A stretch of 64,000 nucleotides of DNA, taken from NCBI GenBank assembly GCA_028278505.1, contig JANQEG010000062.1, positions 1-64,000 on the forward strand. Reading direction: 5' to 3'. Numbering within the stretch: position 1 is the stretch's first letter; every line of letters begins with the position of its first letter. The notes beneath the pieces are model-generated. The model did no database searches and was not told where the DNA came from. It saw nothing but the letters and a program-made list of their open reading frames with translations. Of the stretch, positions 22,698 through 28,131 are shown piece by piece. Source of the stretch: Rhodobiaceae bacterium. Lineage in GTDB: Bacteria > Pseudomonadota > Alphaproteobacteria > Rhizobiales > JAKPQE01. A program made the translations under genes and the position numbers.

Positions 22698-24608
22698 ATG
22701 ACGCCCTCGAACCGCCCCTCGGAAACCAGGCGCGCCGCGCCGACCGAACCGTTCAAGCGGGCGGTGGCGACGACCATGCGGGCGATCGCCAGCCACGCGG
22801 AGCTTGAGGTCACCTTTGCCGCCGACCGGCCGAGCCTGACCGGCGAACGGGCGCGGATGCCCGAGCCGCCGCGCAAGCTGACGGCAAAGGATGCCGCGAT
22901 CACCCGCGGCATCGGCGATTCCATGGCGCTCCGGCTCGCCTGCCACGACAACCGGCTGCACCGGCTGTTTCTGCCCGAGGGCGGCAATGCCCGCGCCGTC
23001 TTCGATGCCGCCGAGCAGGCGCGGGTCGAATCGATCGGCGCCCGCCGCATGTTCGGGGTCGCCGGCAATATCGGCGCCATGCTCGAAGACCGCTACGCCC
23101 GCGGCAATTACAGCGAGATCACCGACCGCGCCGACGCGCCGCTGGAGGACGCGGTGGCGATGATGGTGCGCGAGCGCCTGTGCGGGCTCAAGCCGCCGCA
23201 AAGCGCGGAGAAGATCGTCGAATTGTGGCGCGGCTGGATCGAGGAGCGGGCCGGCGCCGATCTCGATCACCTGACGCAAGTGATCGACGACCAGCGCGAT
23301 TTCGCCAACGCCATGCGCGATTTGATCTCGTCGCTGGAGATGGCCGACGAACTCGGCGGCGACCCGGAGGAGGACGAAGCCGAGGAGGGCGAGGGCGAGG
23401 GCACCAGCGAGGCGAGCGACGAGGCCGAGAGCGAAGGCGCGGAGACCGCTGAGGATGCCGACGCCGACGAGGGCGAGGCGGCGGCCGATGATTTCGACAC
23501 CGTCGAGGTCGAGGCGAGCGAAAATCCAGCCGACCAGCTTGGCGACGAGGGCGATGCCCTCGACCTTCCTGATGACGGCAAGCCGTGGCGGCCCGACTTC
23601 GCCGGCCACAACCAGCCGCCGCAATTCGACTACCGGGTGTTCACCACAAGGTTCGACGAGACCGTCAAGGCCGAAGAGCTGTGCGACATGGCCGAACTCG
23701 ACCGGCTGCGCGCCCTGCTCGACCGGCAGCTCGAAAGCCTGTCCGGCGTCGTCGCCCGGCTCGCCAACCGGCTGCAGCGGCGGCTGCTCGCGCAGCAGAA
23801 CCGGGCCTGGGATTTCGACCTCGACGAAGGCCTGCTCGACACCGCCCGGCTGACCCGGGTGGTCATCGACCCGATGCACCCGCTCTCCTTCAAGATGGAG
23901 CGCGACACCGATTTCCGCGACACCGTGGTCACCCTGCTGCTCGACAATTCCGGCTCCATGCGCGGCCGGCCGATCACGGTCGCCGCCACCTGCGCCGACA
24001 TCCTCGCCCGCACGCTCGAGCGCTGCGGCGTCAAGGTCGAGATCCTCGGCTTCACCACCCGCGCCTGGAAGGGCGGCCAGGCGCGCGAGGCCTGGCTGCA
24101 GGCCGAGAAGCCGGCCGGCCCCGGCCGCCTCAACGATCTCAGGCACATCGTCTACAAATCCGCCGACACGCCCTGGCGCCGCGCCCGGCGTAATCTCGGC
24201 CTGATGATGCGCGAGGGGCTGCTGAAGGAGAACATCGATGGCGAGGCGCTGGCCTGGGCCCATCAGCGCCTGCTCGCCCGCGCCGAACAGCGCCGCATCC
24301 TGATGATGATCTCCGACGGCGCGCCGGTCGACGACTCGACGCTGTCGGTCAATCCGGGCAATTACCTGGAACGCCATCTGCGCCAGGTCATCGAGGAGAT
24401 CGAGACACGCTCGCCGGTGCAGCTTCTGGCGATCGGCATCGGCCACGACGTCACCCGCTACTACCGGCGCGCGGTGACCATCGTCGATGCCGAGGAACTG
24501 GCCGGGGCGATCACCGACGAGCTCGCCGAGCTGTTCGAGGAGGACAACCTCAATGGCGGCCGCGGCCCGGCCGCGGATATCCGCAGAAATCGGGCGCGGG
24601 CGGGCTGA
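22698..24608 (+). CDS. cobT: Cobaltochelatase subunit CobT
   Basis: 636 aa; acidic linker, [50 protein letters not shown] (VWA/MIDAS). Confidence 0.95.
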
Positions 24609-25678
24609 TGGGACGGGCCGCGCCCCTCATCGCGGCCGTTATCGCGGCCGGCCTTGCCACCAGCGCCGACGCCGACGAGAAAATCCCGCTCGACCCGGTC
24701 CCGGTCGAACTCGACACCTATCCGATCACCACGTTTAAGATCGGCGCGCCGCAGGCAACCCGTTTCGGCGCGCTCGAATGGCGCGGCGGCATCGAGATCG
24801 AATCCGATCTCGACCATTTCGGCGGGCTTTCCGCGCTGGTCTTTCTCGACGATGACGGCCGCTTCGCCACCGTTTCCGACACCGGCGTCTGGGTGGTCTC
24901 AAAGATCATCGAGGACGAAGCCGGCCGCCTCAGCGGTCTCGGCGCAACGACGCTGCAATCGCTGCCGGGGCCCGACGGCAGGCCGCTGCTCGGCAAGGAA
25001 TTGTCGGACGCCGAATCGCTGGCGCTGCGCAATGAGGCGGGCCGCGTCGTCGCCTATGTCGGGTTCGAACGCCGCAACCGCGTGCTCGCCTTCCCGCTCG
25101 ACGCCGCGGCCCGGCCGGAGCGGCCGCGCACTGTCCGCCTGCCCTTTGCCACCGGCCGGCTGCGCTATTCGAAGGGCCTGGAGACGCTCGCGTTTGCGCC
25201 GCCGCAAAGCCCGCATGCGGGCGCGCTAATCGCGATCGCCGAGCGCAGCCTCGATAAGCGCGGCAATGTTCTCGGCTGGATCATCGGCGGGCCGCAGCCG
25301 GGGCGGTTTTCGGTTCGCCGCCGCGACGAGTTCGACATCACCGACGGCACCTTCCTCGACAATGGCGACCTGTTGCTGCTGGAGCGCCGGTTCCGCCCCT
25401 CCGACGGGGTGGCGATGCGGATCAGGCGGATTGCCGGCGATGCGCTGAAGCCCGGCCGGACGATCGACGGCGAGCATTTGATCGACACCGACATGGCCTA
25501 TGCGATCGACAATATGGAAGGCCTGGCCGTGCGCCGGAACGGCGGCGGCGAAATCGAGATCACACTCATTTCCGACGACAATTTCTCCATTTTGCAGCGG
25601 ACGCTGATGCTGCGCTTCGTGCTGGTCGAAGCGCCGGCAAAAGCCGTGGAAGGATCGTCGGAATGGCAGCTACGATGA
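24608..25678 (+). CDS. Esterase-like activity of phytase family protein, secreted
   Basis: 356 aa; signal peptide, FGGLSALVFLDDDGRFATVSDTG, NRGTFLDNGDLLLLERRF-like repeats, AYAIDNMEGLAVRR. Confidence 0.8.
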   Translation: MGRAAPLIAAVIAAGLATSADADEKIPLDPVPVELDTYPITTFKIGAPQATRFGALEWRGGIEIESDLDHFGGLSALVFLDDDGRFATVSDTGVWVVSKIIEDEAGRLSGLGATTLQSLPGPDGRPLLGKELSDAESLALRNEAGRVVAYVGFERRNRVLAFPLDAAARPERPRTVRLPFATGRLRYSKGLETLAFAPPQSPHAGALIAIAERSLDKRGNVLGWIIGGPQPGRFSVRRRDEFDITDGTFLDNGDLLLLERRFRPSDGVAMRIRRIAGDALKPGRTIDGEHLIDTDMAYAIDNMEGLAVRRNGGGEIEITLISDDNFSILQRTLMLRFVLVEAPAKAVEGSSEWQLR

Positions 25679-26290
25679 AACCGCGGCGGCGGCCGGCCGG
25701 AAAAGCTGCATGAGCGCCCGGTAGGGAAGGAGCGCGAACCCGGCAAGCCCGATCTTGACCAGGAAGTCTGAGACCGCCCAGCCGACCCAGACCGGCGCCG
25801 TGAGCGTCGTGAATCCGAGCGGATAATCGACCACCGGCAGCCCCGGATCGCCGGCAAAGGCGAGCGAAAAGAACAGCGCGGTGTCGAGCGCCGAGGCGAT
25901 CAGCGACGAGATCAGCGGCGCCTGCCACCATGTCGCCCGGCGCAGGCGGTCGAAGACGCCGACATCGACGAACTGGGCGATCAGGAACGCGGTGCCGGAG
26001 GCGAGCGCGATGCGGACGCTGGACAGCCATAAAGAGAGCGCGATCCCGACGGCGAAGCCGATGAGCACCACGAGCCGCGCCCGGTTCGCGCCGAAACGGC
26101 GGTTGGTCAAATCGGTGACCAGGAAGGCGAACGGATAGGAAAAGGCGCCCCAGGTCAGGTAATCCTCAAGCCCGAGGGGCGTGAACGGGTGCTGGACGAG
26201 GAAATTCGACGCCGCGACGACGGCGCCCATCGCCGCGATCGCGACAACGATACGGAAATCAACTCGGTGTGTCGAAAACGTCCCGGCCAC
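25670..26290 (-). CDS. VUT family queuosine precursor transporter
   Basis: 206 aa; TWGAFSYPFAFLVTDLTNRRFGANRARLVV, ASGTAFLIAQFVDVGVFDRLRR. Confidence 0.85.
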   Translation of the reverse strand: MAGTFSTHRVDFRIVVAIAAMGAVVAASNFLVQHPFTPLGLEDYLTWGAFSYPFAFLVTDLTNRRFGANRARLVVLIGFAVGIALSLWLSSVRIALASGTAFLIAQFVDVGVFDRLRRATWWQAPLISSLIASALDTALFFSLAFAGDPGLPVVDYPLGFTTLTAPVWVGWAVSDFLVKIGLAGFALLPYRALMQLFRPAAAAVSS

Positions 26291-26308
26291 GGCGAGAGGG
26301 CCGCGCCG

Positions 26309-26596
26309 TTACCCGGCGGCCGCGGCCTTGACGACGCGGCGGCGCAGATCGCGCATGCGCGGCGAAAGCTCGTTGTCGCGCGCCTTGATCAGGAAGGCGT
26401 CGAGGCCGCCGCGATGTTCGACGGAACGCAGCGCGTGGGCGCTGATGCGCATCCGGACCGAACGGCCGAGCGCCTCGCTCATCAGCGTCACATTGCACAG
26501 ATTGGGCAGAAAGCGCCGCCGCGACTTGTTGTTGGCGTGGCTGACATTGTTTCCCGACAAGACCGCCTTACCGGTCAGTTCGCAGCGGCGTGCCAT
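26309..26596 (-). CDS. rpmB: 50S ribosomal protein L28
   Basis: [41 protein letters not shown]; start 26596. Confidence 0.97.
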
Positions 26597-26866
26597 GGCG
26601 AATTCCTCGTTGCCTGCCGGCCGCGCGCGGGGCCGGATCGATACCGTCACATTCCTGCTGGAAAGCCGCACTGGTAATAGTCAGGCCGGCCGCTGTCGTC
26701 AAGTGTGAGACAAGACAAGCTTGGCATGAATTAAGCTTTTCGTTGAATGAAACGAAAGGTCGATTTTTGACCTCCAGTTTGTGCAGTGAAGCATTGGAGA
26801 TTTAGATCGCAATGAAACCGACCGAATCGCTATAGTGTCGTGAGAGTGCTTACACGTAACGCGCAA

Positions 26867-26878
26867 GTGATTAATCAC
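26867..26878. promoter_or_regulatory. 12-bp perfect palindrome GTGATTAATCAC upstream of candidate ATG 26882
   Basis: Read directly in sequence; possible operator. Confidence 0.5.
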
Positions 26879-26881
26879 GGT

Positions 26882-27274
26882 ATGTCTTTAGAACACTCCC
26901 AGTTGATAAATTTGCTATCTGGCCGAAACGACCCTCTATGGATCGCAAGCTTGCCGGAGCTGGCAAGGCGGCACCTTAATTGCTCCAGCGGCGCTATATA
27001 TTTATCACGTAGCTCAGCATCTCATATTCTTACAAAGCACACTGACATAGACACATTCTCACTTCTGCTTCTTCCTATAGCAATAGAACTCGGGACGCTA
27101 TATACAGATAGTCGCCGAAAGAAAATGTTGTACAGTATATATAAGGAAGAAAAACGCAATTACTTCATTGCAATGAAAACAGCCCAAAATGGTCATGAAC
27201 TTTGGGTTTCATCTATGTATAAAATTCGAGATTCTGACCTTCGCAAGAAAATGCGCTATCTTGTCACAATTTGA
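26882..27274 (+). CDS. Putative BECR-fold (PBECR-type, barnase-EndoU-ColicinE5-RelE-like) nuclease domain protein; GTG at 26840 is an alternative start
   Basis: GAIYLSRSSASHILTKHTDID...LLLPIAIELGTLYTDS...YSIYKEEKRNYFIAMKTAQNGHELWVSSMYKIRDSDLRKKMRY; AT-rich relative to flanks. Confidence 0.55.
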   Translation: MSLEHSQLINLLSGRNDPLWIASLPELARRHLNCSSGAIYLSRSSASHILTKHTDIDTFSLLLLPIAIELGTLYTDSRRKKMLYSIYKEEKRNYFIAMKTAQNGHELWVSSMYKIRDSDLRKKMRYLVTI

Positions 27275-27432
27275 GGGGGAACAGCCTGGGCGTGGCCGTT
27301 CCCCCGATTCCAAGGGTGGTAGGGCCTGCTGGAACCCTACAATGCGCTCCCATCGCCCAGATGGTGCTACGGCAAGCAGATTTTCACCGTGTCACACCCT
27401 TAGCACCCCGAAGGTCGTTCGAAAGCACGGGG
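27275..27432. ncRNA. Highly structured non-coding block (candidate RNA or 3' UTR structure)
   Basis: GGGGGAAC-a-GCC-tgggcgt-GGC-c-GTTCCCCC (27275-27305); GTAGGG/CCCTAC (27319-27340); CCATC/GATGG (27350-27364); CCCCG/CGGGG (27406-27432). Confidence 0.35.
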
Positions 27433-27624
27433 CGAATCAATGTAACATATTGAGATTCACAACGGAATCATGGAGGGCGCACAAAAAATCAACAGCCGGT
27501 AAACAGCCAACAGTGCTCGTTCTGCATCAATTCCAATACCTTCGCCCATCAACAAAAAAAAGTGGACAACAGGGCCATATCTCCGCCGTCCGCCTGCCTG
27601 TTCCCGAATGATTTAGCGGGTCTG

Positions 27625-28131
27625 CTACTCGGGCAAGGCCATTGTTCGAAACGCCTCCACCACCTGATCATAGACTTTGCGCTTGAACGGGATGATCAGT
27701 TCGGGCACCCGCTCCAGACGTTCCCAGCGCCAGGCGGAGAATTCGGCCTTGTGGCCGCCGCCCGGATGGGCAACGTCGATTTCGTCGTCTTCGCCCTCGA
27801 AGCGAAAGGCGAACCATTTTTGCTTCTGGCCGCGATATTTGCCCTTCCAGGCCCTGCCGACGACCTCGCGCGGAATATCGTAGCTGAGCCAGTCGGGCGC
27901 CTCGCCGATCACCCGGACCGAGCGGATCGAGGTCTCCTCGTAGAGCTCCCGTATCGCCGCAGTCAGCGGATCCTCGCCCTTGTCGATGCCGCCCTGGGGC
28001 ATCTGCCAGGCATGATTATCGTCGGTGTGCTCCTCATCGGCGAAACGGCGGCCGATGAAGACATGGCCGGTGGCGTTGAACACGGCCGCGCCGACGCAAG
28101 GGCGGTAGGGAAGCTTTTCGATGTCGACCAT
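27625..28131 (-). CDS. rppH: RNA pyrophosphohydrolase (Nudix)
   Basis: 168 aa; [49 protein letters not shown]. Confidence 0.92.

Follow-up and report, generated by a model that had tools for sequence, protein, structure and literature searches.

The DNA analysed here, a stretch of 64,000 nt that we call the window, contains an islet of AT-rich sequence with a single convincing gene. Two questions arise: what does this gene encode, and does it act alone? The answer proposed below is that it encodes a phage-type ribonuclease (RNase) which would be held inactive by a small structured RNA encoded just behind it.

An AT-rich islet and its gene

The islet occupies 26700-27611 (no strand assigned), between rpmB (26309-26593, minus strand) and rppH (27625-28131, minus strand). 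Its 912 nt have a GC content of 0.465, against 0.655 for the whole 64-kb window, and this is essentially the minimum among 1262 tiled 912-nt windows, which bears out the composition reported in a preliminary description of the locus. The rpmB-rppH setting given there holds for the window, where both genes flank the islet, but not for relatives: the adjacency is absent in a same-family relative and in the other genomes where it could be judged. Orthologues of the gene in two other genera are also AT-rich (GC 0.42 in surroundings of 0.65-0.66), and the gene-RNA module described below was found at many unrelated chromosomal sites. In two genera that share a homologous flank (G1002/G977), the position of gene and RNA is kept, so there the two have been inherited. 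Searching the islet against a phage collection with blastn gave no match. A plasmid origin of the islet was rejected (no plasmid match), as was an integron cassette (no attC-like core seen). In two families, the module lies near cobT, an esterase gene and rpmB (window 22698-27274; L035), with differing orientation and distance; this is either chance or an insertion hotspot.

The islet's one convincing open reading frame is on the plus strand, ends at 27274 and has two candidate starts, ATG at 26882 and GTG at 26840. The orthologues begin with MTLEH.., which favours ATG 26882 and gives a protein of 130 aa (26882-27274). The frame is coding and conserved, i.e., the gene proposed in the preliminary description is real, and the resemblance to PBECR families suggested there holds as well. 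PBECR3 (PF18812) is the only credible Pfam match (E 7.2e-6), although its 26.3 bits fall below the curated cut-off of 30 bits. A profile-profile comparison (hhalign) of the protein's family with an independent set of PBECR3 domains gave a probability of 96.2% and an E-value of 2.7e-9. By these profile comparisons, the protein is a PBECR3-like relative and not a formal member of PF18812. NCBIfam, PHROGs, PADLOC and PDB sequences yielded nothing credible for it, and an AlphaFold2 model built from one sequence had a pLDDT of only 39, too low to judge the putative BECR fold. PBECR3 was present in just 11 of 387 genomes. As a separate observation, the open reading frame of one guaA (GMP synthase) gene seems to carry an in-frame insertion of a PBECR3 domain in its middle part (L003 364-2541).

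Proteins packaged by phages often carry PBECR domains. The homologues of the window's protein are either solo genes or domains at the C-terminus of Mu-F-type capsid proteins (400-440 aa) of phages and prophages, which supports the phage link suggested earlier. The MuF domain is present in relatives L015, L016, L055 and L057 and absent from the solo gene. Solo PBECR versions have already been mentioned by Iyer et al. 2017 (PMC5512222), who describe the active site of these domains as a His plus a Ser or Thr. The protein's His53 and the second Ser of its WVSS motif align with these conserved residues. His53 and Lys99 are kept in 14/14 aligned members and the Ser/Thr in all but one. The protein is predicted to be a metal-independent endoribonuclease. 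Three solo orthologues are 49-55% identical, and the saturated dS between them, at a dN of 0.40-0.50, indicates that purifying selection acts on the gene. Given this selection and the gene's presence in several genera, the suggestion that it might be a phage remnant does not stand, at least for a remnant in decay.

A cloverleaf RNA behind the gene

The preliminary description called the gene solitary, which is misleading, since it missed the structured RNA with which the gene forms a conserved pair. When the islets were compared with blastn, every solo gene proved to have a non-coding element just on its 3' side, with up to 97% identity over 32 nt even against one of the most diverged loci. 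In the window, this element (model R1, 90 nt) is present in a single copy at 27312-27401 on the plus strand, 37 nt past the stop. Its predicted fold is a cloverleaf: a closing stem, P0 (27312-27318/27395-27401), encloses P1 (27319-27324/27335-27340), P2 (27350-27354/27360-27364) and P3 (27369-27372/27387-27390), and a loop-loop kissing interaction of five pairs (27326-27330/27375-27379) joins the loops of P1 and P3.

Covariation argues strongly for this fold. The sequence of P0 differs in nearly every copy yet is complementary in each, P2 is variable, and P3 is invariant. Unaided, RNAalifold recovered P0 to P3, with compensatory changes in 16 of 25 pairs; adding the kissing pair brings this to 18 of 29, with 91.3% of cells paired. 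None of 500 shuffled controls reached any of five measures, and controls made by sliding the structure paired in only 30-51%. The kissing pair itself covaries (CTGC:GCAG becomes CTCC:GGAG) and is paired in 11/11 copies. The comparative evidence therefore points to a pseudoknotted fold, as is expected of the RNA partner in a type III toxin-antitoxin system.

R1 has no relevant match among the 4227 covariance models of Rfam 15, searched with the window stretch at E<=1 and with ten related loci at E<=0.5. A search for known non-coding RNA, tRNA or tmRNA at this position found none, and blastn of R1 against the phage collection gave no match. We found no description of R1 in the open-licence literature; an earlier description elsewhere is possible. 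Between the stop and R1 sits a GC-rich hairpin (27275-27305, plus strand) that starts directly after the stop codon; it has a perfect or near-perfect stem of differing sequence at 7/7 solo loci in the order. On the other side of R1 is a triad of GANTC sites (GAATC, GATTC and GAATC; 27434-27469, plus strand), GANTC being the CcrM methylation motif. The triad has nearly constant spacing (20-21 and 11 nt) 3' of R1 in four solo loci (the window, L036, L037 and L040).

We looked at the linkage of R1 to PBECR genes from both directions. Starting from the protein, all seven solo genes in 398 genomes of the order have R1 on the same strand, 33-44 nt past the stop; these seven loci are also the set in which R1 was discovered. 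Among Mu-F-PBECR genes, R1 follows four of the nine that could be tested (G478, G693, G316 and G021), at a gap of 1-30 nt. Further protein-first searching for linkage outside the sample gave no usable new gene. Starting from the RNA, we ran the R1 covariance model on 338 genomes of the class and 239 of the phylum (577 in all, a sample of each), with E-values that are rough because calibration was short. This found 16 places, 13 of them outside the model set. At four of the 13, despite the rarity of PBECR3 noted above, R1 is directly behind a PBECR gene: the partner is of Mu-F type or a Mu-F fragment in G228, G110 and a second copy in G316, and solo in G350. No PBECR gene was nearby at the other nine, several of which follow unrelated genes. 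Where R1 is linked, it is on the gene's strand in 15/15 cases. On these comparisons, both the RNA and its linkage to PBECR genes are strongly supported.

The presence of R1 also tracks the state of the active site. The predicted catalytic His and Lys are kept in every R1-linked PBECR domain. Both residues are lost in the Mu-F gene of G723 (N, R, L) and in gpF of phage Mu (A, R, S); neither has R1, and in each the next gene abuts. Mu's PBECR domain is called inactive in PMC5512222. Four further Mu-F-PBECR genes (G1066, G1088, G1070 and G760) have no R1 on their 3' side, and in G760 an Arg replaces the His. In two Helicobacter Mu-F genes, the active residues are intact but R1 is absent, which counts against a strict rule tying activity to the RNA.

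Other RNAs may take the place of R1 in some of these genes. Stem-loops with long closing stems come right after the stops of R1-lacking Mu-F-PBECR genes (L024, L032, L033 and L034); those after the G1066, G1088, G1070 and G760 genes have fold z-scores of -1.3 to -2.5, which are modest, so we treat them as leads. Without R1 but with a different conserved 3' non-coding motif in common (82.5% identity over 40 nt, E 1e-7) are two solo PBECR genes of more distant kinship (G164 and G094). The motif is within about 250 nt of the stop (L042 and L043) and may represent another RNA family, closed by a stem of its own (GTGAGAAC/GTTCTCAC). Different PBECR lineages may each be paired with their own structured RNA.

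What the RNA may do

Our preferred reading, to which we give a probability of roughly 55%, is that a phage-type RNase and an inhibitory 3' RNA form a type III-like toxin-antitoxin or immunity module. To the homology, catalytic residues, covarying fold, and strict linkage and orientation seen in the sequences, this reading adds RNase activity, RNA-protein binding, inhibition, a trigger and a biological role, all of which we infer. The pseudoknotted cloverleaf would bind and silence the solo PBECR/BECR endoribonuclease. The solo pair would derive from, or be common to, the C-terminal toxin region of Mu-F in Mu-like prophages, where R1 would occupy the position of the immunity gene. That gene usually lies immediately downstream of Mu-F toxins (PMC5576092). 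Type III toxin-antitoxin systems are an established case of RNases inhibited by pseudoknotted RNAs (PMC5086642), and an RNA antitoxin exists for the phage-encoded AbiF (PMC12373285). In the phage setting, where the RNase would be packaged and injected, R1 would shield the cell that produces it; in the chromosomal solo pair, a falling RNA pool would free the RNase to cut cellular or phage RNA. We consider an RNase held inactive by R1 to be the best-supported explanation because of the immunity-gene position, the tracking of intact active sites, the resemblance to type III antitoxins and the occurrence of orphan copies, i.e., R1 without a PBECR gene. Points against it are the single R1 copy on the 3' rather than the 5' side, the lack of a PBECR gene at nine of the 13 new R1 places, and the Mu-F-PBECR genes that have no R1, including those of Helicobacter with intact residues.

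Under the preferred reading, the orphans would represent acquired immunity. Two of them, found with the covariance model, adjoin CRISPR arrays (L053 9499-9591, minus strand; L054 14896-14990, plus strand). In G101, the orphan adjoins one end of the array, and Cas9 is in the vicinity; in G378, it has RdrA/RdrB (RADAR) on one side and, on the other, an array whose repeats are type I-E-like. G101 belongs to the same genus as G228, which carries a Mu-F-PBECR prophage with R1. No spacer of the two arrays matched the Mu-like loci analysed here. Elsewhere, an orphan adjoins HepT (G467), and that in G499 is a weak match. These contexts are few and were judged after the fact. A fuller version of the preferred reading, in which the new RNA family provides the immunity against phage RNases delivered with the capsid, the pair serves chromosomal defence or addiction, and the orphans beside CRISPR arrays and RADAR are acquired immunity, is tentative, and we hold it to be doubtful as a whole.

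DUF3800 genes are known for linked structured RNAs, and about 340 nt separate one such gene (L070 5846-6688) from an orphan R1.

An alternative is that R1 is a control element in the 3' UTR: the RNase would bind or cut the cloverleaf with which its mRNA ends, thereby limiting its own production, with no antidote acting in trans. We think this unlikely. In its favour, R1 is always 3', on the same strand and at a short, nearly fixed distance, and some orphans likewise directly follow the stops of other genes (fdr, for ferredoxin reductase, in G589 and G448; a Mor-like gene in G452, where DUF3800 is also near; AntA in G560). Against it stand the R1 copies without a PBECR gene, two of them, beside CRISPR arrays, having no clear upstream gene on their strand, and a conservation of R1 that exceeds what a cleavage hairpin needs.

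Less probable again is that R1 serves Mu-like phages in some general way (in packaging, as a ribozyme or otherwise), merely has its place beside F and was carried along with the nuclease domain. Several orphans are indeed in Mu-like or mobile contexts (Mor/AntA-type phage genes in G560, the Mor-like gene in G452, integrase/AlpA in G547), but phage Mu has no room for R1 between F and G, chromosomal solo pairs outside prophages keep R1 under strong constraint, and Rfam gave no ribozyme or other match even at lenient thresholds. We would be surprised if the element were instead a folded single-stranded DNA site (cassette or recombination) that mobilises the gene. The many unrelated chromosomal sites and the order of gene then folded site, which resembles an integron cassette, fit that idea; the solo loci show no attC core or integrase, gene and RNA were inherited in place across two genera (G1002/G977), and invariant loop residues plus a kissing pair suit a functional RNA better. 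Finally, that the solo gene is a decayed end piece of a Mu-F capsid gene otherwise lost is scarcely credible despite its homology to Mu-F C-termini, as its orthologues have a common solo-specific N-terminus, frames are intact in several families, and dS is saturated at a dN of 0.4-0.5.

The tie between a conserved R1 and an intact nuclease offers a testable answer to what PBECR domains target and how producing cells survive them. R1 also adds an apparently undescribed structured RNA family. If the preferred reading is true, inhibition of RNases by RNA would also apply to an unrelated toxin family and to effectors delivered by virions.

Comparison with known systems

The closest protein relatives are PBECR3 and the PBECR domains fused to Mu-F as described in PMC5512222, with which the solo protein shares homology, the His of the first helix, a Ser/Thr near the C-terminus and a phage capsid context. 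Compared with PF18812 and the Mu-F fusions, the solo gene is below the Pfam cut-off and is stand-alone and chromosomal. A structured RNA partner is not among the PBECR features described in the relevant part of Iyer et al. 2017 (PMC5512222).

In organisation, the pair is like type III toxin-antitoxin systems (ToxIN, CptIN and TenpIN; PMC5086642) and like AbiF/RCd22 (PMC12373285): a small predicted RNase, or RNA-targeting toxin, goes with a compact non-coding RNA that is pseudoknotted or structured, often with a link to phages. It differs from both in that its toxin family is unrelated, its RNA is a cloverleaf of about 90 nt with kissing loops, and its inhibition by R1 is a prediction. Pfam finds only PBECR3 in the solo protein and no toxin of the ToxN/AbiQ/CptN type. 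Moreover, type III antitoxins are encoded 5' of their toxin and separated from it by a terminator, and they mostly consist of tandem repeats, whereas R1 is a single copy on the 3' side.

As in the DUF3800-linked RNA motifs known from comparative genomics, an unexplained structured RNA is consistently beside one protein family; here, however, the RNA is a different one (no Rfam match) and its partner has predicted RNase catalytic residues. The arrangement also resembles that of MuF polymorphic toxins (PMC5576092), which have a toxin domain on a capsid protein and for which a protective partner is expected immediately 3'. The differences are that no MuF domain is present in the solo gene and that the putative partner is an RNA, not a protein.
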